DNA of 59,688 nt from Prevotella ihumii (GTDB lineage Bacteria; Bacteroidota; Bacteroidia; Bacteroidales; Bacteroidaceae): positions 1,697,715 through 1,757,402 of the forward strand of contig NZ_LT706987.1 of NCBI RefSeq assembly GCF_900155655.1, in the 5' to 3' direction. A program made the position numbers and the translations under genes. A model generated the notes under the pieces. It was not told the origin of the DNA and ran no database searches. It saw only the letters and a program-made list of their open reading frames with translations. Of the stretch, positions 31,632-54,095 are shown in pieces. Each line of letters opens with the position of its first letter. Position 1 is the stretch's first letter.

Positions 31632-32861
31632 ATGAAACAAGAGAAAATGAAGGTGTTGCTCTACCTCAAAAAGAGCGGTCTTGACAAGTCGGGCAAGGCT
31701 CCCATCATGGGGCGTATTACACTTGGAAGGAGTATTGCACAGTTCAGTTGTAAACTCTCCTGCAACCCCGACTTGTGGAATCCACGAGAGAGCAGAATGG
31801 ATGGTAAGAGTCGTGAGGCGGTGGAGATAAACGGTAAATTGGAAAATCTGCTGTTGTCTGTTCAGTCGGCTTATCAATCTCTGCTATCCAAAGGTTGCCT
31901 ATTTGATGCAGCCGATGTGAAAGAGCTGTTCCAAGGGAGCGTACAGACACGATGCATGCTCATTGAAAGGCTGGATATGCTCATTAAGGAGAAGGAAAGC
32001 CATGTTGGTATAGACATCAAGGAAGGAGCCATACACGGCTATCACTCTACCCGAATTCATTTGCAGAAGTTTATTCAACGGAAATACAAGGTGACAGACT
32101 TGGCTTTCTCACAGCTCACAGAGAACTTTATCTATGAGTTTGGGCAGTATTTCTTAGGTGAGTGCGGTTTTCAAGAAAGCACATTCTATAATGCAGCCAC
32201 GCATTTGAAGACGGTATGCAGGTTGGCTTACCGTGAGGGATTGGCTGATGTACTTCTATTTGACAAAGCCAAAATTAGCAAGGGCGACAAGAGACTGCCC
32301 AAAGCACTTGACAGAGGGGCATTTGAGAAGTTAAAGACTCTTCAATTTGAGGACTTGGAGGAGGAAATGGAAACGGCAAGGGATATTTTCCTCTTTGCCT
32401 GTTATACAGGTGCTGCATATTGCGATTTGATGGAACTGAACAAGTCCCATCTTGTGCGTGATGATGAGGGTTGCCTTTGGCTGAAGTTCAACCGTCAGAA
32501 GACAGGTGTGCCTTGTCGTGTCAAACTGCTGCCCGAAGCCATACGGCTGATGGAGAAGCTCCACAGCGATGAAAGGGAAACATTGCTCCCTTTCATGGGA
32601 TATGCCACTTACCAATCTTATTTGAAAGCCCTGCGGCTTCGTGCAGGCATCTCGTTTCCTTTTACCACACATACGGCAAGGCACACCTTTGCCACATTCA
32701 TCACGCTTGAACAGGGTGTACCTATTGAGACCGTGAGTAAGATGCTGGGACATTCCAACGTGAGCATGACCGAGCGTTATGCAAAGGTAACGCCACAGAA
32801 ACTCTTTGAGGAATTCGACCGTTTCCTTTCTTTCACCGAAGAGATGCAGTTGGCTATCTAA
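31632..32861 (+). CDS. tyrosine recombinase 1 (integrase)
   Basis: A 409-residue recombinase of the Bacteroidetes type. It has an N-terminal arm-binding domain, a SAM-like core-binding domain (~105-205) and a catalytic domain. Catalytic residues visible are Lys in FNRQKTGVPCRVKLLP, the H-x-x-R box HTARHTFATF, GHSNVSMTERYAKV (His and nucleophile Tyr). The usual first Arg is missing: its place in the motif reads FACYTGAAYCDL, as also seen in IntDOT-like enzymes that lack Arg I. It starts 18 bp after a GTAACTTTGC sequence that may be both promoter and attachment core. It probably performs integration and excision of the element. Confidence 0.92.
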   Translation: MKQEKMKVLLYLKKSGLDKSGKAPIMGRITLGRSIAQFSCKLSCNPDLWNPRESRMDGKSREAVEINGKLENLLLSVQSAYQSLLSKGCLFDAADVKELFQGSVQTRCMLIERLDMLIKEKESHVGIDIKEGAIHGYHSTRIHLQKFIQRKYKVTDLAFSQLTENFIYEFGQYFLGECGFQESTFYNAATHLKTVCRLAYREGLADVLLFDKAKISKGDKRLPKALDRGAFEKLKTLQFEDLEEEMETARDIFLFACYTGAAYCDLMELNKSHLVRDDEGCLWLKFNRQKTGVPCRVKLLPEAIRLMEKLHSDERETLLPFMGYATYQSYLKALRLRAGISFPFTTHTARHTFATFITLEQGVPIETVSKMLGHSNVSMTERYAKVTPQKLFEEFDRFLSFTEEMQLAI

Positions 32862-32922: not shown

Positions 32923-34218
32923 ATGAGAAGTACATTCAAGATACTGTTCTATATCAACAGACAGAAAACAAGGGCAGACGGCAACACCGCCATTCTCTGC
33001 CGTATCACCATAGACGGAAAGAGCACCGCCATTACCACAGGAGAAGAGTGTAAAGTCTCCGAGTGGAACTCCAAACAGGGTTTGACAACCAATAGGAAGA
33101 CCAACCAAAGAATCAATGAGTTCAGGGAATTGATAGAAAAAACCTATCGGGACATACTGACGATGGAAGGAGTGGTAAGTGTGGAACTTATCAAGAACAG
33201 TTTGCAAGGCATTGCCACCAATCCCACCACGCTCCTTGCAATGAGCAAGGCGGAACTGCAAGCCGTCAAGGAAAGCGTTGGAAAGTCAAGGGCAGAGGGG
33301 ACTTATCTGAACCTTTACTATTCTGATAAAAATCTCCGAGATTTTATCGAAAACAAAGGAGTACAAGACATATCTATCGTCACCATTACGGAGAGTTTGT
33401 TCGAGGAATACCGTTTCTTCCTGAAAAAGCGTGGACTGAAAGCATCGACTGTCAATACCAATCTATGTTGGCTGAGCCGACTGATGTTTCGTGCGGTGAG
33501 CAGCAGGATTATCCGCTGCAATTCCTTTGAGAACGCCAAGTATGAGAAGGAGGAAAAGAAGATACGCTTCTTGCAAAAGGGCGATGTAATGAAACTCATG
33601 GCAATGACGATGAACGACAGAGAATCGGAATTGGCTCGGCTGATGTTCGTCTTCTCCTGCTTCACAGGTATGGCTATCGCTGATATGGAAACGTTGCAAT
33701 ATAGGCATATCCAAACGGCAGCGGATGGACAGAGGTATATCCGCAAAGAGAGACAGAAGACAAAGGTCGAGTTCATCGTACCACTGCATCCCGTAGCTGA
33801 AGCCATCATCAGCCATTGCAGGAACGAGCAGGCAAGAAACGAAGAACAGCAGACGGTGAAAGAAAAAGGCGACAGCCTTGTCTTTCAACCTCATTGCAGC
33901 CGTAGCGTGATGGGCAAGAACCTGAGCATCGTGGGTAAGGCTTGCGGTATCCGTCAAAGACTTTCGTACCACATGGCAAGACATACGTTTGGTACGATGT
34001 GTCTAAGCGCAGGTATTCCTATTGAGAGCATAGCCAAGATGATGGGGCATACCTCCATATCAAGCACGCAGATTTATGCGCAGGTAACGGACAACAAGAT
34101 TTCAAAGGATATGGACAGGCTTATAGCCAAACAATCGGCAAATGAGAAAGAAATAGCGGAGAGAGAGACTTGTGAATCTTCGGATATTGTAACCTGTAAA
34201 ATGGAAGAAACGGCATGA
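32923..34218 (+). CDS. tyrosine recombinase 2
   Basis: A 431-residue recombinase similar in layout to the one upstream but not a recent duplicate. The catalytic stretch has VFSCFTGMAIADMETL (Arg I position again not Arg), RQKTKVEFIVPL (Lys), SYHMARHTFGTMCLSAG (H-x-x-R) and MMGHTSISSTQIYAQVT (His/Trp region and nucleophile Tyr). It lies 61 bp after recombinase 1. Paired recombinases at one end are common on Bacteroidetes mobilizable transposons. Its stop overlaps the start of the next gene (ATGA). Confidence 0.92.
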   Translation: MRSTFKILFYINRQKTRADGNTAILCRITIDGKSTAITTGEECKVSEWNSKQGLTTNRKTNQRINEFRELIEKTYRDILTMEGVVSVELIKNSLQGIATNPTTLLAMSKAELQAVKESVGKSRAEGTYLNLYYSDKNLRDFIENKGVQDISIVTITESLFEEYRFFLKKRGLKASTVNTNLCWLSRLMFRAVSSRIIRCNSFENAKYEKEEKKIRFLQKGDVMKLMAMTMNDRESELARLMFVFSCFTGMAIADMETLQYRHIQTAADGQRYIRKERQKTKVEFIVPLHPVAEAIISHCRNEQARNEEQQTVKEKGDSLVFQPHCSRSVMGKNLSIVGKACGIRQRLSYHMARHTFGTMCLSAGIPIESIAKMMGHTSISSTQIYAQVTDNKISKDMDRLIAKQSANEKEIAERETCESSDIVTCKMEETA

Positions 34219-34812: not shown

Positions 34813-35292
34813 TTATATGATGTTTGTTATTTGCCTGACAATCCTCTGAAGTATGCTTTCATTGCTTACAAGTATAGATGCGGTGCCTGTCATTCCGCTG
34901 ATGAGATTATACTTGCAATCTGTTATCCTTACCTGTGCCGTGAACACGTTGCCTTCTGCCGTTTGTAAGGGTATATGCGATGTGGCTGTTATTACACCAT
35001 TTGCAACTCCGTAGGTTTCTGCATCGTAACCCTCAAATTCGATGTTTACCGTCATTCCTCTCGCTAACGTATTTACGTATTTATAGGGAACGGCGATTGT
35101 GCCTTGACGGGCATTTGTCATCTGTACCTTTGCACTGATGGTTTCAGGATAAGGTATAAAGTATGCACCTGCCAGTAGTCCTAATATTACAATAGTGATA
35201 ATCATGATGCCATAGCGTACAATTTTTGACGGTATCTCGCCAATGATGTGCCTTACCTTCTCGCTGCGGAGTTCTATCTTGTCGTCTACCAT
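34813..35292 (-). CDS. short HlyD-type membrane-fusion adaptor
   Basis: A 159-residue protein: a cytoplasmic N-terminus, one transmembrane helix (~27-49, IMIITIVILGLLAGAYF), then beta-rich segments (ISAKVQMTNARQGTIAVPY, MTVNIEFEGYDAETYGVANG, TAQVRITDCKYNLISGMTGT) that match the barrel/lipoyl-type parts of HlyD adaptors. The long coiled-coil hairpin that normally reaches the outer-membrane channel is missing, so it is less than half the usual length. It is 18 bp after the exporter gene and is the last gene of the RiPP operon. It may only chaperone the exporter or use another partner; no TolC gene is in the element. Confidence 0.75.
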   Translation of the reverse strand: MVDDKIELRSEKVRHIIGEIPSKIVRYGIMIITIVILGLLAGAYFIPYPETISAKVQMTNARQGTIAVPYKYVNTLARGMTVNIEFEGYDAETYGVANGVITATSHIPLQTAEGNVFTAQVRITDCKYNLISGMTGTASILVSNESILQRIVRQITNII

Positions 35293-35310
35293 AGTTGTTT
35301 TTCCTTTACG

Positions 35311-37512
35311 TTAGTTTCCTAACTCCAATTGATTCTTTACAAGATTGTAGTATGCACCACGCTTTGCCGTGAGTTCCTCGTGGTTGCCAATCTCGACCAC
35401 CTTGCCTTTATCCAGTACCACTATTTGGTCAGCATTCTTCACCGTGCTTAGTCGGTGTGCTACGATAACTACCGTCTTGCCTTTGTAGAACTCATCCAGA
35501 TGCTCCACAATCATGCGCTCGTTATTGGCATCGAGCGAGTTGGTGGCTTCATCAAGGAAAATATAATCGGGGTTCTTGTATACAGCTCTTGCTATCAAGA
35601 TACGCTGTTTCTGTCCTTGACTCAAGCCAACGCCATCGCGACCAATCTTAGTGTTGTATTTTAAGGGAAGTCCCATTACATAGTCATGAATACAAGCTAT
35701 TTCGGCTGCCCTTTGCAATCGCTCCTTGTCAATCTCACCATCATCTACGGCTATATTCCTTGCTATACTCTCGGAGAATATCACACCGTCTTGCATCACC
35801 ACGCCACACTGTCTGCGCCACCACTTCTTATTTAGCGTATTTACACCTGTTCCGCCTATGGTGATTTGTCCTCCCAATACGGGATAATAGCCCAACATCA
35901 GTTTGATGAGGGTGGTCTTTCCGCTACCCGACGCTCCGACAATGGCAGTTACCTTACCTTTGGGGATTGTGAGGCTTACATCATCAATGATGGTTTTCAA
36001 TGCGTGAGAATCGTACTTGAAGTTTACGGCTTCAAGGTCTATGCCTTGATTTTTTTCTTTCACTGCCATTTCCAATCCTTGCTTTCCGTTCTCATCATCC
36101 ATGCGGTGGATTTCATTGATACGCTCAAGACTTATCTTCACATCCTGCACCGAATAGAAGAAACTCATCAACTGCTCGACAGGTGAGTTGAGTTGCCCAA
36201 TGATATACTGCACGGCAAGCATCATACCCAGCGTGAGCTGTCCGTGAATGACGGCTGTGGCTGCCACCACGGTGATTACGATGTTTTTCAGTTCGTTGAT
36301 GAATATGCTACCAGCCTCTTGTGTCTGTTGGAGTTTAAGGGATTTCATCTGCACTCCAAAGAGGTCTGCCTGCACGTCCTCCCATTCCCAACGACGACGT
36401 TGTTCACAATCTTGGAGTTTTATCTCCTGCATAGAGGTGATAAACTCGTAGGTCTTGTTGTTGTTGATGGCTTGCTGCTCGAAGAGTTCGTAATCAAGTA
36501 CTTTTCTGCGCCTGAGGAAGAGTGCAAGCCAACCGCCATAGAGCAGACTACCGAGCATGAAGATGGTAAAGACAAGCCAATTATAGGATAGCAGCACGAT
36601 GCTGAACACCACAAAGGTAAAGAGGGAGAACACGATGCTAAGTGTCTTTTGAGTTAAGAACGTGTTCACCCTACTATGGTCACCCATACGCTGCATAAGG
36701 TCGCCCATCAGTTTAGTGTCGAAGAACGACATCGGCAGTTTGAGCAGCTTGATGAAGAAGTCACTCACAAGAGAAATATTGATCCGCATAGAGATATGCA
36801 GTAAGAGCCAACGACGGATAAAATCAATGGCAGTACGGCTCATGGTAAGGACAAGTTGTCCCAAGAGTATTAACCAAATAAAACCGATGTTCTGGTTTTT
36901 GATTCCCACATCCACAATTGATTGCGTGAGGAAAGGCAGGATAAGTTGCAGCAGACTGCCCACAAGTAAGCCTAAGACTATCTGCCCAAAGTGCTTTCCG
37001 TATTTTTTGACATAACCGAAAAGAAACTTGAGTGAGCGTTCTTCTTTCAGCTTGGATTCTTCTTTAATATTATTGTTATCAAGTAACTGAGTAGTACTGC
37101 AAAGCATAGCGATTCCTTGCTCTTTATCTTTCAATCTTGTACTAATCCAATGACTCTTAAATTCCTCTAAATTATATTTAATTAATCCTTTACTAGGATC
37201 TGCTATATAAAATCTCTTGTCTCTTCTTATTTTATATAGTATTACAAAATGATTCTGATTCCAATGGAGAATACAAGGTAACGGATATTTGGATAAATTG
37301 GTAATATCTATCTGGGTACAAATCGTATCAAAGCCTAGGTAATTTGCAGCTTTACTTAGTCCCAATAAAGAAATTCCTTCTGTAGTTGGCGTACATAGTT
37401 TTTCTAAAAAAGATAAAGAGTATCTTTTTCCATAATATTCGCATATCATTTGTAAGCATGTAATACCACATTGCATAGAATCGTATTGATGTAAGAAACG
37501 AATATGTTTCAT
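35311..37512 (-). CDS. peptidase-containing ABC exporter (C39-PCAT, LanT/ComA type)
   Basis: A 733-residue protein. Residues 1-140 are a C39 peptidase: Gln9 and Cys15 in HQYDSMQCGITCLQMICEYY, the active His in CILHWNQNHFVILYKI and Asp in YIADPSKG. About 170-440 is a six-helix ABC membrane domain. The nucleotide-binding domain has VGASGSGKTTLIKLML (Walker A), LSQGQKQRILIARA (signature) and YIFLDEATNSLDA (Walker B). Such exporters cut leaders after double-Gly motifs while exporting the peptide; the precursor at 42007 ends its leader in Tyr-Gly-Gly. The substrate link is inference from motif and operon. Confidence 0.92.
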   Translation of the reverse strand: MKHIRFLHQYDSMQCGITCLQMICEYYGKRYSLSFLEKLCTPTTEGISLLGLSKAANYLGFDTICTQIDITNLSKYPLPCILHWNQNHFVILYKIRRDKRFYIADPSKGLIKYNLEEFKSHWISTRLKDKEQGIAMLCSTTQLLDNNNIKEESKLKEERSLKFLFGYVKKYGKHFGQIVLGLLVGSLLQLILPFLTQSIVDVGIKNQNIGFIWLILLGQLVLTMSRTAIDFIRRWLLLHISMRINISLVSDFFIKLLKLPMSFFDTKLMGDLMQRMGDHSRVNTFLTQKTLSIVFSLFTFVVFSIVLLSYNWLVFTIFMLGSLLYGGWLALFLRRRKVLDYELFEQQAINNNKTYEFITSMQEIKLQDCEQRRRWEWEDVQADLFGVQMKSLKLQQTQEAGSIFINELKNIVITVVAATAVIHGQLTLGMMLAVQYIIGQLNSPVEQLMSFFYSVQDVKISLERINEIHRMDDENGKQGLEMAVKEKNQGIDLEAVNFKYDSHALKTIIDDVSLTIPKGKVTAIVGASGSGKTTLIKLMLGYYPVLGGQITIGGTGVNTLNKKWWRRQCGVVMQDGVIFSESIARNIAVDDGEIDKERLQRAAEIACIHDYVMGLPLKYNTKIGRDGVGLSQGQKQRILIARAVYKNPDYIFLDEATNSLDANNERMIVEHLDEFYKGKTVVIVAHRLSTVKNADQIVVLDKGKVVEIGNHEELTAKRGAYYNLVKNQLELGN

Positions 37513-37568
37513 TAAACTGTGAGCTTTAGCATTAATATTTCAATAATAGTCAAAAATAAAACTGGACG

Positions 37569-39074
37569 TTAGATATTCGATATTGTTAAAATACAGTTTT
37601 CTATCATCCGGTAAATAATTCTTTCTACATATCTTAAATTAGCTTCATACTCTTCTTTACCATATTTGTTTTGTGATAGTGCACAAACATTATCTATTAT
37701 ATCGGAGGCTGTTGCTGTATGCTCCTGTAGGAGATAGTCTATAATAGTTTCAACCGTTCCACGAGCAACTACTTCATAAACTGTTTGACGAAAAGCATCT
37801 GGTATAGTTACAACTTTATACATTTTATTTTCAATTTTTTGATTTTTTGTAATATACATCAATGTTTCTGATGATATATCTGTCAAGCTAATAAAAGGAT
37901 TTAAAATAAACTGACAATTACTCTCATATAATCTCTCATTTTCCCAAAAGCTATTAATGCAAGTATACTGCTTTTTAAAAAATTCCTTCTTATTATCTTC
38001 TAGTTGTTTCTCAACTTTGATGCACGTGTTGTCCAGTTTCTTAATTTCGGTATAGATTCTTTCTTTCATTATTTTTCCTATATCATAATTTTTAGAAACT
38101 TTAAAACTACGTGACCTTTCTAATATTTCGTTGGAAGTCCTGTAATGATGGATATAAGGAGTATCTATAAAATTCAGATAATTAGATATTGGGATACCGC
38201 CATGCTGGATATATGTATTGATTATATGATGATGTAAAGCAGGATCTATTTTTTCTAGAAGCCTTGATGCAAAAATTTGTGCATCATTTCTTTTTTTTAT
38301 ATTTCCAAGCATATGACAATAGCCGTGTTTTTTCAAACACGACATATCAAGATTCATCCAATCAAACAAAGTACTTAATTTTTCACCTTCAGTGCAGTAG
38401 CTTATAGTTTTATTATATTTTTGAGCTAGGCAATAAAAGAAAAGTTGCTCGTAAACAGAATTTATAAAACCGTCATGATTAAGTTTCAAAATCCTATCAT
38501 TGTTATATATAAATCTATATGCTTGTTCTGTGTAGTATTGAATGAATTTCACATCATTTCCTCCGAGTACGCCTGCATTAGCCACACTAATAATCTTATT
38601 TTTAAGCTCTATATCTGCAAAATTGGGAATTTTTCCTCCAACTTGTATGAAACGATCTATGCACTTACGATTATACAATTGATCGTCATACTCAATATTT
38701 TGTGCGAATAAGTCTGCTTTCCAAAAGGAATCTGGTAAGCTGTCATACAACAAAAAATCACAATCTACATGTAAAAATGGTTCATGCTGTTCACTGTATG
38801 TATATAATTTTGGCAAAGCCCATAATTCATAGCCAGAATACCCTTCCATAATATTCGGAATTGTTACTATCTGATCATAAGGAATACACAATTCTTCAAC
38901 AACTTTTTTAGCTGTGGAATTGCAATACAGCGTAACATGACCATAATGCTGCTTTAGTAAAAGGCAACTAATAGCCATAGTTATCCAATGAAATTCAGGT
39001 GAGAGAAATCCTGCTTTATCGAACATAGGATCTTCATCTGTGGAGAAACTGTAATATGTCTGTAAAAACCTCAT
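37569..39074 (-). CDS. DUF6734-type glycosyltransferase-like RiPP tailoring protein A
   Basis: A 501-residue protein. The first ~300 residues match the DUF6734 family: MRFLQTYYSFSTDED, FLSPEFHWITMAISCLLL, and PFLHVDCDFLLYDSLP, whose Asp104-Cys-Asp106 is a DxD-like metal/nucleotide-sugar site, then ISVANAGVLGGNDVKFIQYY, a loop typical of GT-A enzymes. The C-terminal ~110 residues (DAFRQTVYEVVARGTVETI and onward) look like a winged-helix module that could bind the leader peptide. It is paralogous to the next protein in the operon. Sugar transfer to the core Ser, Tyr or Cys is an inference; the family has no known reaction. Confidence 0.75.
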   Translation of the reverse strand: MRFLQTYYSFSTDEDPMFDKAGFLSPEFHWITMAISCLLLKQHYGHVTLYCNSTAKKVVEELCIPYDQIVTIPNIMEGYSGYELWALPKLYTYSEQHEPFLHVDCDFLLYDSLPDSFWKADLFAQNIEYDDQLYNRKCIDRFIQVGGKIPNFADIELKNKIISVANAGVLGGNDVKFIQYYTEQAYRFIYNNDRILKLNHDGFINSVYEQLFFYCLAQKYNKTISYCTEGEKLSTLFDWMNLDMSCLKKHGYCHMLGNIKKRNDAQIFASRLLEKIDPALHHHIINTYIQHGGIPISNYLNFIDTPYIHHYRTSNEILERSRSFKVSKNYDIGKIMKERIYTEIKKLDNTCIKVEKQLEDNKKEFFKKQYTCINSFWENERLYESNCQFILNPFISLTDISSETLMYITKNQKIENKMYKVVTIPDAFRQTVYEVVARGTVETIIDYLLQEHTATASDIIDNVCALSQNKYGKEEYEANLRYVERIIYRMIENCILTISNI

Positions 39075-39286
39075 GTATGCAATAATATTAATAAAACAAA
39101 ATCTTTTTCTAAAAATACCTTTAAGCTACTAACAAAAACCTTAATTTTAGGTTGTATAAGTATTAAACCTTCTGAGTGTATATGACTATATAATTAGTAC
39201 ACTTAAAATACATTAGTGTAGCATTATGCTCATGCCACCAAAGTATTAATTATAAAGTATGCACTATGTTTTGTTATTTTATGGTG

Positions 39287-40543
39287 TCATATAATTAATA
39301 CATTATCAAATAATCCCTTGCGAATACTTGTAATTAAATATTCTTGTTGAAAGGGATTCAAGTCTGTTATTATTTCGTTTAACCGAATAGGCTTCCTAAA
39401 TATTTTAAGTAGATTTGTCATAACAGAGTCGTATTTTATATACACATTCTGCGCAAGATATGTATTGTATGTTTTTAGATATCCCTCCTGTTTGCATTCC
39501 TTTTTATCAGGTAATGTTGAAACTTTTTTATTACTTATGAATTTAACATCAGGAGAAATTGAAATTATAGAGTTTAATAAGTCTCCATTAGATATTTTTT
39601 CATATTCTATTGCTCTTTTCTCATACTCACTATTTGCAATACCTTTTAGTGTGATTTTTTGACAAATATCATTTTTATGGCATACATAGAGTATTCGGTC
39701 AAAATACTCTGGATACTTCCTATACATTTGCCTAATGATATAGCTATTACAGCGTGGATGACTTTTGTAATTCATTATGTGAATATAAGGATGATTGTTA
39801 GCTTCCACTACTTGGTCAGGGACTGTTCCCCAAGGCATAACAAAATCCTTAACAACACCCTTAATAAATGTTTCAACCTTGATTCTTTTTGTATGTGCTA
39901 AGGCATAAAAAATCCATTGTTCAAAAACAACATTATAAAGAAACTTCTTGTCTGACTTTCTTATACTATTAGCATTGCTTGATAAAAAATCTTTAACATA
40001 TTCAATGTACTCTTTCCAAAAGAACACATTATTACCACCCAATACCCCTGCATTATATGAATGTATATTATTTTCACCGAAACATACTCTCATGTAATCA
40101 GGAATTATCGCATTGCATGATTTCAAATGGTTTAGTACTAACATGTAGAAATTTGAATCGTTTTCTTCATGCTGGGCTACTAAGTCTGCTGTTAATAAGC
40201 GCTTCTTGAGCGCTTCCTTGCAAAACACATCACAGTCTATATGCAAAAAGGGAGCATTTTGCATACTATATGTTTGAATTTTAGGGTAACAGTAAAAATC
40301 CCTATACTCATTCTTGATGTCATCCAATATGAAGTATGTATCATATGGCAATAGAAACAAATCTTTAAATATATGTTTTAACTCAAAATTTGTATACATA
40401 CAAAGGGGTATTTGTGGGTTATACTCTTTTAAGAGTAATCCACTCAATGCTATTGATAGCCAATTGACTAGTGGAGATAAATAACCTCCGCAAAAGTTCA
40501 GTCCATAACTTCTTAACTGACTATATGTTTGAATTATATGCAT
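39287..40543 (-). CDS. DUF6734-type glycosyltransferase-like RiPP tailoring protein B
   Basis: A 418-residue paralogue of the preceding protein. Shared landmarks are MHIIQTYSQL, YLSPLVNWLSIALSGLLLKE, PFLHIDCDVFCKEAL (Asp103-Cys-Asp105) and HSYNAGVLGGNNVFFWKEY. The C-terminal ~60 residues (SVMTNLLKIFRKPIRLNEII) again suggest a small winged helix. It lies 7 bp after the radical SAM gene, so the two are co-translated; a 212-bp AT-rich gap without a gene separates it from protein A. Two diverged copies suggest two transfers or an active/inactive pair. Confidence 0.75.
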   Translation of the reverse strand: MHIIQTYSQLRSYGLNFCGGYLSPLVNWLSIALSGLLLKEYNPQIPLCMYTNFELKHIFKDLFLLPYDTYFILDDIKNEYRDFYCYPKIQTYSMQNAPFLHIDCDVFCKEALKKRLLTADLVAQHEENDSNFYMLVLNHLKSCNAIIPDYMRVCFGENNIHSYNAGVLGGNNVFFWKEYIEYVKDFLSSNANSIRKSDKKFLYNVVFEQWIFYALAHTKRIKVETFIKGVVKDFVMPWGTVPDQVVEANNHPYIHIMNYKSHPRCNSYIIRQMYRKYPEYFDRILYVCHKNDICQKITLKGIANSEYEKRAIEYEKISNGDLLNSIISISPDVKFISNKKVSTLPDKKECKQEGYLKTYNTYLAQNVYIKYDSVMTNLLKIFRKPIRLNEIITDLNPFQQEYLITSIRKGLFDNVLII

Positions 40544-40550
40544 TATGTTA

Positions 40551-41909
40551 TTATTTTATATGGTTAAGTCTGTATATAGCATTTATTAGCATGCGATCCT
40601 CTATATTATATATAAACATAGGGCATCTAGGTTCTTTCTCATATAATGCAAGTGGACATAATCCTCCACATAAAGGATAATACTTACAATCTTTACACTG
40701 TTTAATCTGACCACTTAACAACATGTGGGGAATGGTCGCTAAGGCACTATTTTTGCGCTTATTACCTCGGTTATGTATATTGCCCAAATGCAATGGACCT
40801 CCTAAATATCTTGTAGAATAGGCTGTCTCCGAACAGTCGTAAATATTACCATAAGCATCATACATTAAGGACTCTTTCATTGTCCCAATACATATATAAG
40901 GCCCACTTCTGTGCGGAAGAATCTCTGTTCTAAAACCATGCGTTAGCATATAAAGTATATACTCTGTAGACTTTTTCCCAATTATCTTCCATGTCTTGGC
41001 ATCACCAGCACCATTGTTTGCCCATGAAACAACACATGCACAATAAAAACGAATTTTATCCTGCATCCCATCATTGTACAGTTTATGTAAAAGTGGAATA
41101 ACACCATCTATATTACTTTGATCAATATTACATCGAATGGTTATCATGCATTTAGTCTTATCATAGTATGGGCTTGAGACTATAGACTTTAAATTGTTGT
41201 ATAATTTAACAAAAGTTCCTTTACCGCTACACGTGAAACGGTGCTTGTCATGGAATTCCTTATCTCCATCTATTGTTATTTCTATCCTCCTGCAATTAAA
41301 TTGTTCCTTTAACTCTCTATATACATCTGGCGTGAGTATATAGCCATTTGTAGTTATATGAGATAGATTTTTAATCTTATGCTTATTTGTCAGAATTTTT
41401 ATATGCTTATTGATTATACGCATTTTATCTAAGGCGCATAACGGTTCTCCTCCAAACCATCCTATTTCCATGTCCTGATAATCATGTGCAGATAATTTAA
41501 TATCAATCTGTTTGATGAGACATTCTATGGTATCTATACTGATTTCTGCATGGTTGTGCTCTTGACCACAATAGTTACAAGCAAATTGACATTTATCAGT
41601 TGGTTGAATGGACATATATAGGTGCTCACTATGGTACTGTCTTTGCTTCTTTAAAATCTTTTGGTTTTCTATGTTTATTGATCTAAACTCGTCTTCTTCC
41701 TTTGGAACAAGCACCTTTGCTTTAATTAATAACTCCATTGTATTTTTGTCTATATGCCTAAAATCTTCATTGATGACAGAATTATAGGTGTTAGCTGATA
41801 CAAAAATGTTTTTTGCTGTTCTTCCAGAAAAGAAGAGACCTAATTGATGTCTCTTAATGTGATATAAATTCTTAAATAAATATGCTGAGAGTTTAAGTTT
41901 ATTTTCCAT
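40551..41909 (-). CDS. radical SAM/SPASM peptide maturase
   Basis: A 452-residue protein. The N-terminal ~95 residues have no motif but resemble the winged-helix leader-binding region of such maturases. The radical SAM cluster is Cys107-xxx-Cys111-xx-Cys114 in PTDKCQFACNYCGQEH, followed by GWFGGEPLC (GGEP SAM-binding motif) and ITTNGYIL. The C-terminal SPASM/twitch domain (~340-440) supplies further Cys: YICIGTM, YDCSETAY, CKDCKYYPLCGGLCP and PRCP, enough for auxiliary [4Fe-4S] clusters. It probably installs a thioether or C-C cross-link in the core peptide encoded just upstream. It is separated from the precursor gene by an attenuator-like hairpin. Confidence 0.92.
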   Translation of the reverse strand: MENKLKLSAYLFKNLYHIKRHQLGLFFSGRTAKNIFVSANTYNSVINEDFRHIDKNTMELLIKAKVLVPKEEDEFRSINIENQKILKKQRQYHSEHLYMSIQPTDKCQFACNYCGQEHNHAEISIDTIECLIKQIDIKLSAHDYQDMEIGWFGGEPLCALDKMRIINKHIKILTNKHKIKNLSHITTNGYILTPDVYRELKEQFNCRRIEITIDGDKEFHDKHRFTCSGKGTFVKLYNNLKSIVSSPYYDKTKCMITIRCNIDQSNIDGVIPLLHKLYNDGMQDKIRFYCACVVSWANNGAGDAKTWKIIGKKSTEYILYMLTHGFRTEILPHRSGPYICIGTMKESLMYDAYGNIYDCSETAYSTRYLGGPLHLGNIHNRGNKRKNSALATIPHMLLSGQIKQCKDCKYYPLCGGLCPLALYEKEPRCPMFIYNIEDRMLINAIYRLNHIK

Positions 41910-41929
41910 TTTCTATGTTATAATATTAG

Positions 41930-41984
41930 AAAAAAGGGAATGCTATTGTCGGAGTAAAACTCACGCTCCAGAGTTAGCATCCCC
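41930..41984 (-). terminator. attenuator-like hairpin between precursor and radical SAM genes
   Basis: On the minus strand GGGATGCTA (41983-41975) pairs with TAGCATTCCC (41945-41936), with GGAG/CTCC and ACTC/GAGT pairs inside, followed by six T. Partial termination here would yield more precursor than enzyme mRNA. Confidence 0.75.
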
Positions 41985-42006
41985 TAATACTCATTTTGTA
42001 ACTGTC

Positions 42007-42162
42007 TTAGTGACAATTACCGAATGAACAGTTACCATAGTAACCCCATTCTGCTCCTCCGTATAATTCGTCGGCCTGCTCTTCGTTCAAAATAATGCAA
42101 TCTTGATCGATTTCTTTCAACATGGACTCATCAAGGAGCTTTTTTAAATTAATTTCTGCCAT
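42007..42162 (-). CDS. 51-residue RiPP precursor peptide with double-Gly leader
   Basis: ATG at 42162, TAA at 42009-42007. Leader: residues 1-36, beginning MAEINLKKLLDESMLKEID and ending LNEEQADELYGG, acidic and helical with the Gly35-Gly36 pair expected by C39 exporters. Core: AEWGYYGNCSFGNCH (37-51), aromatic-rich, with two Cys (45 and 50) in a tandem pentapeptide YGNCS/FGNCH. It lies 83 bp behind the outer-membrane protein and ahead of the radical SAM, DUF6734 and exporter genes on the same strand. The short length explains why gene finders miss it. Precursor identity is strongly supported by position and motif; the modification is unknown. Confidence 0.88.
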   Translation of the reverse strand: MAEINLKKLLDESMLKEIDQDCIILNEEQADELYGGAEWGYYGNCSFGNCH

Positions 42163-42245
42163 AAGGCTAAAAGTATTTAATAACGTCTACTCTTTTAAAG
42201 ATTTTCGACATCCTCTTTATCTGTACGTGAATTTATATTTATCTG

Positions 42246-44546
42246 CTACTTCGTTGTTGGCACAATACCTGCATCAGTATCAGAGTTATGAATACGTTGG
42301 TTCACCTCAGAACCGTGCTTTCCAAAGTTCAGGTTGAAATGAAAGTCTATGCCAAAAACCTTACATAGATTTTTCGACCATACCATTTGATTATAAGGAG
42401 CAAGATGGGAAAGATTTTCTACAGACATTTCATAACGTGAACTGAAGATGTTCTGCAACTGGAGTTCTACACCCCATTTTTCTCTATTGTACCCAAAAAC
42501 TATACTATGTGATTTCTCATCTTTGTTAAGTGTCTCCCCCCACAGTCTATGAAAACTTGTCTCAAGATTGGCGCCTACATACCAATTCTTGTACATTCCC
42601 ATTAAGTTGGCACGCAAGCCCCAGTTAGTATGTGTATGCGTATAGGTATTGCCATTGCTGATATAGCGATTGACAAATGGGGTAAATTGGATGGACATAT
42701 AATCCCTCCAAGGTTGTACTTTTAGGTTTATTTGAGAGTTCAGACGATGGAAGCCTCTTTGATTGGCATAACTCCTAACATAGAAGCCATTCGAATAGGT
42801 TGTTTCTTCCATATATGGTTTATCATCATAGCTATAACGAGTAAACCATTCTGCACTAATATATTTTGTTCCTACGCTAATTGATAGTTCATTAGAGAAA
42901 AATCTGACCGCCTGTAGATTTGGATTTCCACGGCGTATTTGGTAAATGTCTATGTGTTGTTCAACATCGCTTAATTCGGCAAGTGAGGGTGCGTAGCCTC
43001 CCATGTAGGCTTTGTAGCGTATTGACAGATAATTGTTGAAACGGTACCCCAGCTGAATAGTTGGACGAAATATATATTTTACCTGTTTGGCATTTCCTTG
43101 GCTAACATAGGTTCTCATAGCACCTACACCTACCATATAATCCAGTTTTCCTAACTTTGAAGCCCATTCTCCAAAACCATAACTCTCACCTGTATTCATC
43201 TTTACGCTTGAGGATGTGTTTCCATCATATGCGTTTTTTGTGTACATCTGCTGATGTCGCAGACCGAATGACAACCGCGAATCCTTGATTTTCTGCTCGT
43301 AAATAACTTCAGCTATGGTCGAATATTTATTGCCATTGACATGGGAAGTTATTTCCTGCACAGCATTCCCCAGAGATTGGCGATATAAACGGTCGTTTTT
43401 AGTATTGATATATGTTCCTATCAGGTCAAAGAACAGATGCCGATCCTTGGTAAACTCATGCTGATAATAAATATCTAACGATGGATTGTTGCTCCTTGAC
43501 TTGGTGCGGTCCTTGATATCGAATGTATTGCTATCCTGAATAAGTTTGGAATTTCTATCAGATACCGCATGAGGCGTATTGTTATATAAATCACGAAAAG
43601 TAACACTCAATATGTTTCCGCTATTTATGTAATCGTATCCTATGGATAGATTGATGTTGTCATATCGTGCCTTTGTCTTTTGCCCTATCTCATAGTTACT
43701 GATACTGGGGGTCGTTGCATGGAAAGCCTCCATGTTTTCACGTAACCAGTTTACATCACGTCGATTCCAGTTTACAGATGCCTTGAAGTTTGACTTACCT
43801 ACATGATAATTACCCGATAACTGATAATCTCCTATACCTAAGGGATTGATAGTGTTCATAAACTCTCCGGAGATGCTTCCACCATTCTTCTTTTCTTTTA
43901 AGATAATGTCAATTACGGCAGCTACATTTCCGTATCTTAGACCAGGATTATCATGATATTCTATTCTCAATACGTCTGCCGGCAAGAGAGCCTTCACCTC
44001 CTGTATCTCTGCCTTTACACCATTAATACGTAACTCTACGGCATCCCCCATAGTGGTAGTCACCTTACTGTCAAGCGTATTTACAGAGATTCGTGAAAGC
44101 TGAAGATGCTGCAACAAACTTAAACCATTGCTTGATGTTTTTTGCTGAAGCAGATTAGGGATAATTATTTGGCGGTCAGCTTTTTGTATTACGTTGTTGG
44201 CGATCACTGTAACGTCATTAAGCTGCTTACTTTCTGGTTCCAACATGATTGTACCCACCGAAAGGTGCTTAGAAATGTTTTGGCATTTAATTTCCTGCGT
44301 AGAATACCCAACAAAAGATATCCTTATTCTATAGTTCTCTCCTTCATGCGTATTCAGTTCAAAGCCGCCATTCATATCAGTTACTACTCCACTAATCATC
44401 TTATTTTCGCTTTCACGAAACAACGAAACCGTTGCAGCTGGTAATGGTTGCTTGTTTTCATCTACGACCGTTCCCGTAGTTTGTGCAGCAAGAATACCAT
44501 AGCAGCCAGACATGAGCAACGTGAGAATTTTCTTTTTCATAAACAT
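42246..44546 (-). CDS. TonB-receptor-like outer-membrane beta-barrel protein
   Basis: A 766-residue protein with a signal peptide (MKKKILTLLMSGCYGILAAQ, start at 44546 or 44540), a carboxypeptidase-regulatory-like beta-sandwich (~25-105, GTVVDENKQPLPAATVSLF), a plug-like domain (DVTVIANNVIQKADRQ and onward) and a large C-terminal barrel of the outer-membrane beta-barrel group. No TonB box is obvious. It is the first gene of the RiPP operon and has two TTACAC-N4-GTGTAA boxes upstream of a TACATTTG -7 element. It might import the finished product, serve as its receptor for immunity or sensing, or be its outer-membrane exit. Which of these is unknown. Confidence 0.85.
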   Translation of the reverse strand: MFMKKKILTLLMSGCYGILAAQTTGTVVDENKQPLPAATVSLFRESENKMISGVVTDMNGGFELNTHEGENYRIRISFVGYSTQEIKCQNISKHLSVGTIMLEPESKQLNDVTVIANNVIQKADRQIIIPNLLQQKTSSNGLSLLQHLQLSRISVNTLDSKVTTTMGDAVELRINGVKAEIQEVKALLPADVLRIEYHDNPGLRYGNVAAVIDIILKEKKNGGSISGEFMNTINPLGIGDYQLSGNYHVGKSNFKASVNWNRRDVNWLRENMEAFHATTPSISNYEIGQKTKARYDNINLSIGYDYINSGNILSVTFRDLYNNTPHAVSDRNSKLIQDSNTFDIKDRTKSRSNNPSLDIYYQHEFTKDRHLFFDLIGTYINTKNDRLYRQSLGNAVQEITSHVNGNKYSTIAEVIYEQKIKDSRLSFGLRHQQMYTKNAYDGNTSSSVKMNTGESYGFGEWASKLGKLDYMVGVGAMRTYVSQGNAKQVKYIFRPTIQLGYRFNNYLSIRYKAYMGGYAPSLAELSDVEQHIDIYQIRRGNPNLQAVRFFSNELSISVGTKYISAEWFTRYSYDDKPYMEETTYSNGFYVRSYANQRGFHRLNSQINLKVQPWRDYMSIQFTPFVNRYISNGNTYTHTHTNWGLRANLMGMYKNWYVGANLETSFHRLWGETLNKDEKSHSIVFGYNREKWGVELQLQNIFSSRYEMSVENLSHLAPYNQMVWSKNLCKVFGIDFHFNLNFGKHGSEVNQRIHNSDTDAGIVPTTK

Positions 44547-44633: not shown

Positions 44634-44719
44634 CAAATGTATTGGTTTCTCCAAATTATATCGTTACACTTTTGTGTAATTCTGAATTTGTTGTCTGAAA
44701 TATTACACAAAAGTGTAAT
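44634..44719 (-). promoter_or_regulatory. promoter and two palindromic operators of the receptor/RiPP operon
   Basis: Minus-strand -7 element TACATTTG at 44641-44634. Operator palindromes TTACAC-N4-GTGTAA lie at 44664-44679 and 44703-44718 (extended to ATTACACAAAAGTGTAAT). The nearer box is 22 nt from the -7 element. The farther one abuts the stop codon of the GNAT gene. Confidence 0.85.
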
Positions 44720-45348
44720 CATGCAGCCTTGCAAAGTTCACCATACTTTGAAAAGAACCCCATTATACCTCTCTTACTGGAACATACAGGAACAGTTTCC
44801 GATGTCAGGTAATCTATGGATTTCCCTATTTGACGTGTGCCAAATCCCAAGCCCTTCATTACTTTCAATAGTTTGCTGTCAATCTCTGCTATCATATAGC
44901 TGTACTTGTCCTCTACTATCGGTTTTACTGCCAATGCCATTAGCCGCTTGAACAATGTCAATGTGGATATTCCCGAATCCTTTGCAACGGCAAAGCGCCC
45001 GATATGCCAAAAACTATATTTACTTTCCCCGTGAATAGCATTCAGTGGATTTATTCCGTATATTTTTTCAATAGGAAGAGTCTTGTGTTTATCCCAATGG
45101 AAACTCCTGATGCAGCCAATTATATTCCCAAAGGCATCCCTTGCAATATAAATATGAGATTTGTTATCATACAGATATTCCTCTTCTTCAAGCACTGATT
45201 TGATATCTTCATTTACTTCTTTCTCTGTAAATGAAGATAAGTGATGGGAGTAATTTTCCTTGACCACAAACTGTGCTATTTCCAACAGACTCGTTTTGTC
45301 TGCCATGAAGATAGCGTAGTCCTTAAATGTTGCAATCTGTTTTTCCAT
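44719..45348 (-). CDS. GNAT-fold acyltransferase (FeeM/LuxI-like shape)
   Basis: About 209 residues from ATG 45348 (MEKQIATFKDYAIFMADKTS). The frame is open 48 bp further up, but the -7 element at 45377-45384 makes the downstream ATG the likely start. Motifs are SHIYIARDAFGNIIGCIRSF (adjacent beta strands) and SFWHIGRFAVAKDSG, which resembles the E-I-S-R-L-A-V block of N-acyl amino acid synthases and acyl-homoserine-lactone-like synthases. So the donor may be acyl-ACP and not acetyl-CoA. It is divergent from the LuxR-type gene and co-regulated with the RiPP operon. Acylation of the peptide or synthesis of a signal are both possible. Confidence 0.65.
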   Translation of the reverse strand: MEKQIATFKDYAIFMADKTSLLEIAQFVVKENYSHHLSSFTEKEVNEDIKSVLEEEEYLYDNKSHIYIARDAFGNIIGCIRSFHWDKHKTLPIEKIYGINPLNAIHGESKYSFWHIGRFAVAKDSGISTLTLFKRLMALAVKPIVEDKYSYMIAEIDSKLLKVMKGLGFGTRQIGKSIDYLTSETVPVCSSKRGIMGFFSKYGELCKAA

Positions 45349-45376
45349 AATGCTTTTTGTTTCTTGATTTATATGG

Positions 45377-45498
45377 CAAAAATACTTCTTATGCAAATAT
45401 CACCTATTACACTTTTGTGTAAATCTTCATTTCTCTCTTTGTTTTTTACACTTTTGTGTAATCTTTTTGCGGTATTTCGCATTAAAAATGTACTTTTG
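45377..45498. promoter_or_regulatory. divergent control region, GNAT and LuxR-type genes
   Basis: Minus strand: -7 TATTTTTG (45384-45377) with operator 45407-45422 exactly 22 nt upstream. Plus strand: operator 45446-45461, -33 TTTG (45466-45469) and -7 TACTTTTG (45491-45498). Both operators are perfect TTACAC-TTTT-GTGTAA palindromes. Confidence 0.85.
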
Positions 45499-45538
45499 TA
45501 GTGAAATATATCAGAGAATCTTAGCACGTTTAGCATAT

Positions 45539-46294
45539 ATGACAGACATAAAAGATTTCTTTATAGCATCGAACACCGTGCGTAATGCACCAGATTACGA
45601 TTCAAATGTATTGTCAACATTGATTCATACAGTAGAGTCCTTTGCACGTGTAACCTATCAGAGCATTTATTTGATAGACTATTATAAGCAGGAGTTTCTT
45701 TATGTATCAGATAATCCTTTGTTTCTTTGTGGTCATACAGCAAAGGAGGTGAAGGAATTGGGGTATAGTTTTTATTTGAAATATGTACCAGAGGAAGAAC
45801 TAAAAATGCTTGTTGAGCTGAATAAAAGTGGGTTTAAGTTCTTTGATACTTTCGACAATGTTGATAAATACCAATGTTCCATGTCATATCATTTTCATCT
45901 GAAGAGTGGAACAAAAAGTAAGTTGATTAATCACCAGCTTACTCCCATTCTATTGACAGATGAAGGCAATATATGGATTGGTATGTGTGTCGTATCACTA
46001 TCTTCACATAAAACAGTGGGACATGTAGAGTTTCACAAAAAGGGTAATCTTAACTATTGGAAATATTCTTTCGAAGGGCATCGGTGGAAAGAACGTGATG
46101 GAATATCACTCAAAGAAGAAGAACTTGAAGTGCTACGGTTATCAGCAGCAGGGCTTACCATGACGGAAATTGCGAACAGAATGTGCCGCTCGTTAGATTC
46201 TATCAAAACCTATAAACGCCACGCCTTTGACAAATTAGGCGTGACGAATATCACCGAAGCTATTTCAAGAGCTACCTTAAACAAACTCTTCTGA
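45539..46294 (+). CDS. LuxR-type regulator with PAS-like sensor domain
   Basis: From ATG 45539 (MTDIKDFFIASNTVR) the protein is 251 residues. The N-terminal ~165 residues form a PAS-like domain (QSIYLIDYYKQEFLYVSDNP, then GHTAKEVKELGYSFYLKYV). The C-terminus is a LuxR/GerE helix-turn-helix: LKEEELEVLRLSAAGLTMTE, IANRMCRSLDSIKTYKRHAF and DKLGVTNITEAI. The frame is open 72 bp further upstream, but a -33/-7 promoter occupies that stretch. It is the best candidate for binding the palindromes near all four promoters, including its own. The ligand is unknown. Confidence 0.85.
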   Translation: MTDIKDFFIASNTVRNAPDYDSNVLSTLIHTVESFARVTYQSIYLIDYYKQEFLYVSDNPLFLCGHTAKEVKELGYSFYLKYVPEEELKMLVELNKSGFKFFDTFDNVDKYQCSMSYHFHLKSGTKSKLINHQLTPILLTDEGNIWIGMCVVSLSSHKTVGHVEFHKKGNLNYWKYSFEGHRWKERDGISLKEEELEVLRLSAAGLTMTEIANRMCRSLDSIKTYKRHAFDKLGVTNITEAISRATLNKLF

Positions 46295-46303
46295 AAAAAT
46301 AAC

Positions 46304-47053
46304 TTACGGCAAAAGCGAAGAGAGATAGAATTTAGGAAAATAGTTCACAGGTTTTCCTGTAGCAAGATTGTACATTGCCGTTGTACACAAGCCTGCTGCA
46401 ATCCATGATGCTATGGACAGTTGTAGAGGTGGAAGCATTTCGCTTTCCTTTTTATATTGGGTTACAATTTTGTCTAACCACTCTTTAGGTTGATTCCAAA
46501 AAGCCCCGTGTCCAGTAACATACTCAGCTACCTTTAATTCAAATCCCTTTGGCTCTTCAGTCAGTTCAGATAAAGAATGCCCCAATGGGTCTACAACCGT
46601 AACAAAGCCAGCCCAACCAAAGTTGTATGGGTGCAGTACTGGGATTTTTCTTTCTTTGCAAATTTCATCAAAGACGAATGGAGTTTTATCCTTAAAGTCC
46701 AATGCATTGATGGCTACATTATGCCCATTCAGCATCTCTTCGATGTTATCAGGGTTAAGGAACTCTGTATGGTAATCTATCTGTGCATCAGGATTGATGC
46801 TTAGCAAACGCTCAGCCAAGCACTCAGCCTTGTATCTGCCAATATCATTCTCTGTATAGTTCTGCCTGTTCAGGTTGCTTTGCTCTACCTTATCGCCATC
46901 AACAATGGTAATATGCTCGAAGCCAAACCGCAAGGCACATTCTGCCACAATGCTGCCGATACCTGCACCACCAAGGAATATCTTATAATCCTTTATCACA
47001 CTTTGCTCTTTCTCACTCATATAGAGCCTGTTTCTGCTGTATCTTTCTTCCAT
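46304..47053 (-). CDS. ThiF/E1-like adenylyltransferase
   Basis: A 249-residue protein of the ThiF/MoeB/HesA fold: MEERYSRNRLYMSEKEQ (N-terminal R-Y-S-R-N typical of the group), IFLGGAGIGSIVAECALRFG (nucleotide-binding Gly loop), ITIVDGDKVEQSNLNRQNY (Asp and Arg that position ATP), then VAINALDFKDKTPFVF. The zinc-binding CxxC pairs of MoeB are absent, as in several natural-product E1-like enzymes. It would activate a carboxylate, possibly a peptide C-terminus. It converges on the LuxR-type gene with a 9-bp gap and carries its own operator box, so it belongs to the RiPP regulon. Confidence 0.82.
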   Translation of the reverse strand: MEERYSRNRLYMSEKEQSVIKDYKIFLGGAGIGSIVAECALRFGFEHITIVDGDKVEQSNLNRQNYTENDIGRYKAECLAERLLSINPDAQIDYHTEFLNPDNIEEMLNGHNVAINALDFKDKTPFVFDEICKERKIPVLHPYNFGWAGFVTVVDPLGHSLSELTEEPKGFELKVAEYVTGHGAFWNQPKEWLDKIVTQYKKESEMLPPLQLSIASWIAAGLCTTAMYNLATGKPVNYFPKFYLSSLLP

Positions 47054-47073: not shown

Positions 47074-47119
47074 CAAAAGTAGATGTAATAAAGCATATAT
47101 ACATTACACAAAAGTGTAA
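47074..47119 (-). promoter_or_regulatory. promoter and operator of the ThiF-like gene
   Basis: -7 TACTTTTG (47081-47074, minus strand) and the perfect palindrome TTACAC-AAAA-GTGTAA at 47104-47119, separated by 22 nt. An AATAATCAA/TTGATTATT hairpin (47118-47143) follows immediately and may end the convergent HTH transcript. Confidence 0.85.
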
Positions 47120-49483: not shown

Positions 49484-49558
49484 TAGAATGTGTAGTATTG
49501 TCTTATACTACAAAGTAACACTGATTATCAATCACTTATCACAGAATAGTATGTAGTA
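49466..49558. repeat. TGTAGTA iteron-like repeats (candidate replication origin)
   Basis: TGTAGTA occurs at 49466, 49479, 49491 and 49552, and as the reverse complement at 49506, in 93 bp between the VapE-like ATPase and the primase. The first three are spaced 12-13 bp, close to one helical turn. Confidence 0.6.
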
Positions 49559-49665
49559 AGAAGAAAGATGAAAAAGTTTGGAGGGGAAAAACTTTGGAAA
49601 AGGTAAAACCATAAACACAGACAAACATAAATAATTATCATTCAACCCATTAAAGTATCAAAACA

Positions 49666-50640: not shown

Positions 50641-50642
50641 AA

Positions 50643-51077
50643 ATGGAAAAGAAAACTATGATGAGCGACAAAGACCTTTCATGGTTCTTGGGCGTGGAAG
50701 ATGAAGCAGAGGACGATTCTACTTCACAAGAAGCGACTGCGGTTCCTGAAAGAGAAAGACCAACAAACAAGCAGGACACAGAGAATACCATGCACTCCGA
50801 CCCTGCACGGAACACTGAGAGTGCAACTGTTCAAAGACGTATCAGTGCCAAGATGAGAAAGAAAACACTCGAAGCCTACAAGCAAGCCTATCTTGTGCCG
50901 ACCAAGTTAAACAACCGTAAGGCAGTCTATCTGAGTAGGGAAACACAGGAGCGTGCCGACTTCATTGTGCGTAGATTAGGCGACAGGGGCAGCAACCTTT
51001 CAAGCTTCGTTGAGAACATCGTTCGTCAGCATCTGGAGGAATATGGTGAGGACATAGAGAAATGGAGAAGACTGTAA
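50643..51077 (+). CDS. DUF3408-type mobilization-associated protein
   Basis: A 144-residue protein. The N-terminal half is acidic and low-complexity (DDSTSQEATAVPERERPTNK). The C-terminal half (KAVYLSRETQERADFIVRRL, then SNLSSFVENIVRQHLEEYGE) looks like a ribbon-helix-helix DNA-binding domain and matches the DUF3408 family found next to mob genes on Bacteroidetes elements. It starts 3 bp after the primase. A perfect 14-bp inverted repeat follows 6 bp after its stop. Confidence 0.78.
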   Translation: MEKKTMMSDKDLSWFLGVEDEAEDDSTSQEATAVPERERPTNKQDTENTMHSDPARNTESATVQRRISAKMRKKTLEAYKQAYLVPTKLNNRKAVYLSRETQERADFIVRRLGDRGSNLSSFVENIVRQHLEEYGEDIEKWRRL

Positions 51078-51082
51078 GCCGT

Positions 51083-51148
51083 AAGAAAAGGTAGACGGTT
51101 TTCTGGAAAAAGGTCTACCCCTTCTTCAAAATAGGTCTACCTTTTCTT
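51083..51148. repeat. 14-bp perfect inverted repeat downstream of the DUF3408 gene
   Basis: AAGAAAAGGTAGAC (51083-51096) pairs with GTCTACCTTTTCTT (51135-51148), with a third GGTCTACC copy at 51112. It may be a terminator (T-rich tail) or part of oriT. Confidence 0.75.
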
Positions 51149-54054: not shown

Positions 54055-54095
54055 TCATCATCGTAGTAACATTTTAAATACTAAATTTATTGCTT

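Follow-up and report, generated by a model that had tools for sequence, protein, structure and literature searches.

Glycocins of the sublancin type are built on a plan of a glycosyltransferase and a C39 exporter. Sactipeptides and ranthipeptides (CteB, PapB, TIGR04463-type) couple a radical S-adenosylmethionine (SAM)/SPASM enzyme to a cysteine-containing core, and three-residue cyclophane peptides carry the motif Aro-x-Asn. Here, we describe a seven-gene operon of Prevotella ihumii that has features in common with all of these systems. It lies in a 59,688-nucleotide stretch of contig NZ_LT706987.1 (positions 1,697,715 to 1,757,402), hereafter the window, in whose numbering positions are given, and it is carried by a mobile element. 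The reading of the operon as a source of a ribosomally synthesized and post-translationally modified peptide (RiPP) is well supported. On balance, the operon probably makes a secreted ribosomal peptide: the radical SAM enzyme would cross-link its core, proteins of the family DUF6734 would glycosylate it, and the C39 exporter would cut off its leader at a YGG site; all steps of this pathway are derived from families and models.

The operon differs from sactipeptide and ranthipeptide systems by two additional glycosyltransferases and by the tandem Aro-x-Asn-Cys motif of the core, and its radical SAM enzyme scores below all NCBIfam cut-offs shown. The Aro-x-Asn motif of the cyclophanes occurs here in tandem, with a cysteine after each asparagine, and the enzyme scores under the listed cyclophane maturase cut-offs. 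With glycocins the operon has in common a predicted peptide glycosyltransferase and a C39 exporter, and the DUF6734 loci L072 and L074, described below, are likewise reminiscent of glycocins; however, the glycosyltransferase is GT8-like with a tail resembling a RiPP recognition element (RRE), and a radical SAM enzyme is present in the window. The section on fusions in the RRE-Finder paper (2020, PMC7470986) mentions RRE-glycosyltransferase fusions as lying outside known classes, the same architecture as in the second DUF6734 protein, and names no family, peptide or motif. Two Bacteroidales RiPP clusters in the main text of PMC10352776, BGC3 (radical SAM/LanC/glycosyltransferase) and BGC9 (LanM/glycosyltransferase), resemble the operon in their double-glycine (GG) type precursors, their glycosyltransferases and, in BGC9, the C39 exporter, but differ in partner enzymes; the words 'timonensis', 'histicola' and 'TonB' are absent from that main text. 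The open-access literature searched yielded no paper on DUF6734 and none on joint radical SAM cross-linking and glycosylation in this form. The initial annotation had called the system probably undescribed, which holds for the combination within the open-access literature searched; RRE-glycosyltransferase fusions as such had been mentioned in 2020.

Operon layout, precursor and conservation

The seven open reading frames (ORFs) are all on the minus strand, with intergenic gaps of 7-212 bp, in the order receptor-like protein, precursor, radical SAM enzyme, GT1, GT2, C39 ABC exporter and HlyD. GT1 and GT2 denote the DUF6734 proteins encoded at 39287-40543 and 37569-39074. Gene number, strand and order agree with the initial annotation, as judged by ORF coordinates and Pfam/NCBIfam matches, and so do the gene identities given below.

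The precursor (42007-42162, minus strand) has 51 residues and was found as annotated. It consists of a leader (residues 1-36) that ends in ADELYGG and a 15-residue core (residues 37-51), AEWGYYGNCSFGNCH, with the tandem units YGNC and FGNC. Leu -12, Leu -4 and YGG mark the leader, which we take to be of the ColV GG type, and its conserved consensus is D/E-CI[IV]L....AD.IYGG. A search with a three-sequence profile recognized 52 relatives among 58 candidates, which shows that the ORF is not a chance one. The YGG site is kept in 47 of the 52. These 47 and the precursors of three loci make 50 sequences with 39 distinct cores, 20 of which contain two Asn-Cys units. Within the 20, which include many close kin and a few cores with read-through tails, an aromatic residue stands two positions before the asparagine in every first unit (20/20) and in 18/20 second units, giving the pattern Tyr-x-Asn-Cys ... 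Phe-x-Asn-Cys. The remaining 19 distinct cores are without both units, several of them being frameshifts of the same downstream DNA.

Many relatives (P0200-P0224) have an intact leader and a core broken by a frameshift, which may reflect noise in the assemblies or a true loss. We rejected the idea that such broken variants form arrays within one genome: seven genomes had one precursor match each, the sole second match being weak (E 0.18, one genome). The precursor P0212 is apparently fused to the start of the radical SAM gene. Cys22 (42097-42099) is invariant in the three-locus alignment, which is curious for a residue of a leader that is removed.

The outer-membrane receptor-like protein (42246-44546, minus strand, 766 residues) contains a CarbopepD_reg_2 domain (4e-16) and is 46% identical to its homolog in the diverged locus L036. 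No beta-barrel model matched it; its relatives in L036 (OMP_b-brl_3) and in a second diverged locus, L076, do match such a model. The ABC exporter (35311-37512, minus strand, 733 residues) has a C39 peptidase domain (PF03412, 2e-34) together with PF00005 and PF00664. The short HlyD-type adaptor (34813-35292, minus strand, 159 residues), annotated as a mini-HlyD, matches only the C-terminal part of TIGR01843 (6e-8).

L036 and L076 have these seven genes in the same order as the window, and in both the precursor sits between the receptor and the radical SAM enzyme. In L036 the radical SAM enzyme is 56%, GT1 38%, GT2 43% and the exporter 87% identical to the proteins of the window; the values in L076 are 51%, 46% (over the first 291 residues), 39% and 77%. 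A further locus, L075, is partial and resembles L076 in type; here the contig ends within the precursor. Two DUF6734 genes adjoin every readable radical SAM homolog of at least 50% identity (the window, the near-copies L003-L005, G092, G583 and G548), and the GG precursor is conserved at these loci; in G548 the contig ends within it. Seven genome entries for the radical SAM enzyme and for GT2 agree in the length of the longest contig, which may be an indirect hint that the two are linked. DUF6734 itself matches in 17 of 398 genomes of the genus, 16 of them over the cut-off, and in 16 of 395 genomes of the phylum.

At E 1e-20 or better, the radical SAM query matches in 31 of 399 family genomes and 25 of 395 phylum genomes, nearly all listed matches being only ~24-34% identical. 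A profile detected no DUF6734 in 12 loci around such homologs (L038-L041, L157-L164); a weak blastp match to GT2 in L160 is a purine-biosynthesis enzyme. Because DUF6734 was not found in these 12 loci, the combination of the two families is, on the sequences compared, clade-specific. Cysteine-rich small ORFs, mostly with GG leaders, stand beside the distant enzyme in at least six loci (L038-L041, L159, L160). In L038-L041, the distant enzyme and cysteine-rich GG precursors without DUF6734 are accompanied by receptor-like genes, and the cores include CCKLQFSCN and CCDIQFSCN. The initial annotation had tied its proposal to conservation of the small ORF and to radical SAM homologs that keep both precursor and DUF6734 as neighbors. 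The small ORF is conserved, in the profile search and across the loci of at least 50% radical SAM identity; the neighborhood is kept at that identity and, with respect to DUF6734, not at ~24-34%.

Radical SAM enzyme and DUF6734 proteins

The radical SAM enzyme (40551-41909, minus strand, 452 residues) was correctly assigned as a SPASM enzyme: it matches Radical_SAM (5e-12) and has the motif CxxxCxxC at 107 and the SPASM cysteine pattern from 340. The two motifs are kept in 42 and 43, respectively, of the 45 closest homologs, those missing them being proteins of 280-376 residues. The cluster cysteines of the radical SAM and SPASM domains are invariant columns of the alignment, in line with the thioether class. 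The best curated model is TIGR04463 (rSAM_vs_C_rich), and the enzyme is below the cut-offs of this and the other models for cysteine-rich peptides (TIGR04463 178.6 of 525, CefB 135.7 of 600 and PapB 89.2 of 340 bits). By sequence, 5wgg is the closest to it among solved structures, and we take this entry to be CteB. The title of the companion structure entry 5why refers to thioether formation in sactipeptides. The N-terminus of the enzyme had no match among PqqD proteins of relatives in HHalign, and a scan of viral contigs with the enzyme found no relative.

We propose that the SPASM enzyme would join side chains inside the tandem Tyr-x-Asn-Cys / Phe-x-Asn-Cys units. Cysteine-derived thioethers are preferred because the nearest enzyme models and the neighbors of distant homologs point to cysteine-rich peptides. 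The enzyme could instead form Tyr/Phe-Asn carbon-carbon cyclophanes, leaving both cysteines free for S-glycosylation by the two glycosyltransferases in an otherwise identical pathway. The tandem Aro-x-Asn before both cysteines and the equal numbers of units and glycosyltransferases, two each, fit this alternative, and Aro-Xaa-Asn is given as the motif of strained cyclophanes in the text of PMC9062424. However, the models of cyclophane and carbon-carbon maturases score lower than those of the cysteine-rich maturases (DynA 68, YhhB 59 against a cut-off of 445, GrrM/OscB 52, FxsB 42 against 370 bits), all models being below their cut-offs. Moreover, the distant homologs adjoin cysteine-rich cores without the tandem motif, and the second unit of the L036 core is without the aromatic residue. 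We therefore regard cyclophane formation as rather unlikely, and thioether cross-links remain the preferred product of the enzyme.

Both glycosyltransferase candidates had been annotated as DUF6734 proteins, and Pfam agrees (7e-58 and 3e-59; 196.8 and 201.2 bits for GT1 and GT2 against a PF20508 cut-off of 27). The predicted model of GT2 (37569-39074, minus strand; PF20508 3e-59) has a GT-A fold with a GT8-like domain in residues 1-290, and DxD is present in 21/21 aligned members of the family, a set hand-picked from the loci; the GT-A-like nature read earlier from motifs is thus upheld. GT1 (39287-40543, minus strand; PF20508 6.6e-58), likewise a predicted GT8-like peptide glycosyltransferase, keeps HxDxD and NxG..GG in this alignment. 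A search of solved structures by sequence with GT2 gave nothing up to E 1, and no glycocin enzyme is among the 50 structural matches listed for it. The predicted structure newly specifies the role of DUF6734 as that of a putative glycosyltransferase.

The C-terminal tail of GT2 (within residues 376-501) is predicted to adopt an RRE-type fold, as judged by structure comparison of the model. A Foldseek search with the tail gave nothing below E 0.07, the top two rows being the RiPP complex TglHI, and HHalign against PqqD proteins of relatives found no match. RREs diverge strongly in sequence. The tail of GT1 in the window was not detected by a profile of the GT2 tail (E 0.84). Of the winged-helix-like tails annotated for both proteins, that of GT2 is accordingly supported and can be specified as an RRE-type fold; for GT1 this profile gives no such support.

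DUF6734 is repeatedly found next to GG peptides. We counted ORFs on the same strand within 3 kb of DUF6734 that had the GG leader pattern and a cysteine in the core. Such ORFs occur in 11 of 22 DUF6734 loci, against 1 of 22 on the opposite strand and 0.2 expected from shuffled DNA; the 22 exclude near-duplicates and the partial, short or broken loci L071, L075, L080, L103, L110 and L111. One of the 11 scoring loci, L070, looks spurious, and the rule misses the precursors of L072 and L074 (~3 kb away) and of L107 (leader pattern). The partners of DUF6734 vary: a cysteine-rich GG peptide with a VKOR-thioredoxin protein and a C39 exporter in L072; a cysteine-rich GG peptide with a VKOR protein in L074; five precursor-like ORFs, an OMP_b-brl_3 receptor and a C39 exporter in L068; two radical SAM enzymes, a second glycosyltransferase and a C39 exporter in L106; and a LanB dehydratase in L109. 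In L101, L102, L104 and L105 a GG precursor adjoins DUF6734 with no RiPP enzyme among the neighbors covered by a partial annotation. DUF6734 beside GG precursors with such varied partners perhaps marks a wider family of glycosylated peptides.

Instead of acting on the peptide, the two DUF6734 proteins might build or modify some other glycan or lipid and be only passengers in the cluster, as tail-less relatives near which no peptide was seen (L112-L116) could indicate. Nevertheless, the RRE-like tail of GT2 and the repeated adjacency of DUF6734 to unrelated GG precursors, including those of L101, L102, L104 and L105, speak against this, and we consider it very unlikely.

Acting on the peptide, the GT8-like domains would attach one or two sugars. 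An acceptor that is conserved would be Tyr42, Asn44, Asn49, Cys45 or Cys50, since the core of L036, KGKWICGGVYNNCVNC, is without serine or threonine. Some DUF6734-linked cores lack tyrosine (several in L068) or asparagine (one in L107), and all those read contain cysteine. The presence of cysteine in all linked cores would weakly favor it as the acceptor; the argument is partly circular because the search rule required a cysteine in the core.

Proposed pathway and product

The conserved precursor with leader and core adjoins modifying enzymes, and its GG leader is matched by a C39 peptidase exporter in the same operon. The earlier reading of a RiPP plan from a GG precursor, a C39 exporter and a SPASM maturase is supported by their joint presence. 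We hypothesize that the RRE-like tail of GT2, perhaps also that of GT1, binds the conserved leader, and that the C39 ABC protein and the short HlyD export the modified peptide. The receptor would probably be the cognate outer-membrane partner, serving self-protection or re-uptake.

The product could also be a signal or a scavenged ligand re-imported by the receptor, and not an antibacterial peptide. The operon starts with the receptor, whose identity changes with the cassette, and has a LuxR-type gene as a neighbor, all of which suit a signal. On the other hand, we take export of GG peptides by C39 and HlyD proteins to be the classic bacteriocin plan, and L210, a related locus described below, keeps a receptor without a recognized peptide gene, as an immunity gene might be kept. 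We regard a signal or ligand as unlikely. Colicin V is named as an example of such export in the main text of PMC10352776.

Putative switch, mobile element and varying cargo

Upstream of the operon lie three genes and a set of palindromes beyond the gene list of the initial annotation. They encode a FeeM-like N-acyl synthase (44719-45396, minus strand, 225 residues; PF21926 1.1e-5, 25.7 bits and thus below the cut-off of 27), conserved across loci with the switch, a LuxR-type regulator (45467-46294, plus strand, 275 residues; GerE 4e-10, no Pfam match to its N-terminus) and a ThiF/E1-like adenylyltransferase (46304-47053, minus strand, 249 residues; PF00899 1.7e-36). Paired palindromes TTACACTTTTGTGTAA, 39 bp apart, are at the head of the peptide operon (44664-44718), a second pair with the same spacing is between the FeeM-like and LuxR genes (45407-45461), and a single palindrome is upstream of ThiF (47104-47119). 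The perfect 16-bp palindrome thus has five copies around the trio, out of 11 in the whole 3.3-Mb genome, in which the pattern read backwards has none. Bacteroidota -33/-7 promoter patterns gave no strict match; upstream of the receptor and of LuxR there is one loose match each. No paper on FeeM with LuxR in Bacteroid- taxa was found in the open-access literature. LuxR would likely bind the paired palindromes and turn the operon on, with the FeeM-like enzyme making its signal; ThiF might have a part in signal synthesis or have the peptide as its target.

Five of the remaining six palindromes are in a second element of similar layout in the same genome, L189 (G000:C1:1286000-1305900), whose FeeM-like, LuxR, ThiF, exporter and HlyD proteins are 96, 86, 95, 86 and 81-82% identical to those of the window. 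Its cassette consists of no more than a receptor, 26% identical over part of its length, and a small ORF, MRQSFFEELNKKELELVKAG..., with an AG-type leader; no radical SAM or DUF6734 relative was found there. A stretch that contains ORFs of 128 and 539 residues splits the FeeM-like gene of L189. The last palindrome is upstream of an orphan LuxR, 65% identical, in L190 (G000:C4), near a 1487-residue ORF whose start resembles that of Cas9.

The FeeM search matched in 14 of 368 genomes of the genus, and eight further switch loci were read from eight of these (G465, G503 and G514 were left out). A palindrome pair is just behind the FeeM-like gene in eight loci (the window, L189 and L209-L214), with a spacing of 39 bp at seven of them and 38 bp at the eighth; four of the pairs include a one-mismatch copy. 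L215 (FeeM-like 46%) and L216 are more distant. In L216 (G573), a variant palindrome, TTACCCAAAAGGGTAA, is upstream of a 50-52% identical LuxR and also behind a 50% FeeM-like gene; the different palindrome of this diverged LuxR suggests that operator and regulator may change together. L036 and L076 have no exact palindrome, and the switch is by this comparison separable from the peptide pathway.

The cargo behind the switch varies. L214 has a radical SAM enzyme, a GG precursor, a receptor and a C39 exporter. The cargo of L209 (7563-13337) consists of an arginase-family protein (PF00491), an M50-like protein, an OMP_b-brl_3 receptor, a small ORF and a 369-residue protein without a Pfam match. 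L212 has a cysteine-rich GG precursor, a weak radical SAM-like frame and a receptor; L211 a receptor and an exporter, with no precursor recognized; L210 a receptor alone, with no peptide gene recognized; and in L213 nothing was recognized behind the switch. Trio and palindromes apparently form a transferable switch with exchangeable peptide cargo. The exchange of cargo behind a conserved switch is an additional find that is partly tested.

The mobile element extends from ~31,310 to ~53,510 (22 kb), where the DNA shared with other species ends and different flanks begin. It is 99.95% identical to DNA of Hoylesella timonensis S9-PR14 over the 19.6 kb first read and 98% to Prevotella histicola JCM 15637 over 19 kb (94% at both ends), and P. 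vespertina A2879 has part of it, at 95% identity in the operon and 90% on the side of the switch. In the P. histicola assembly, both the exporter and the receptor have broken frames. Two tyrosine integrases (31632-32861 and 32923-34218, plus strand, PF00589) lie at one side, and VapE, primase, DUF3408, NikA-like MobC and relaxase genes for replication and mobilization (48218-52892, plus strand) at the other. With an integrase, a relaxase and the same DNA between different flanks across species, it has the features of an integrative mobilizable element, and the initial annotation of a mobilizable element stands. There is no tRNA within the window, and the two element ends have no identical stretch longer than 10 bp in common. 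Just outside the element, a 1491-residue ORF contains a Cleaved_Adhesin domain (54090-58565).

We tentatively suggest, with a confidence slightly short of even, that Bacteroidota elements combine a fixed LuxR/acyl-synthase/ThiF switch with palindromic operators and exchanged cassettes, one of which would encode a new class of hybrid RiPPs. In this class, a radical SAM enzyme would cross-link peptides with the tandem Tyr-x-Asn-Cys / Phe-x-Asn-Cys units, and DUF6734 proteins, as GT8-RRE enzymes guided by the leader, would glycosylate them. DUF6734, a Pfam family of unknown function, gains a testable role in leader-guided peptide glycosylation by a GT8-type enzyme. In Prevotella and its relatives the switch, perhaps one for population sensing, would be transferable and could be combined with various peptide weapons or signals, which opens the control that mobile elements exert on peptide cargo to direct tests.

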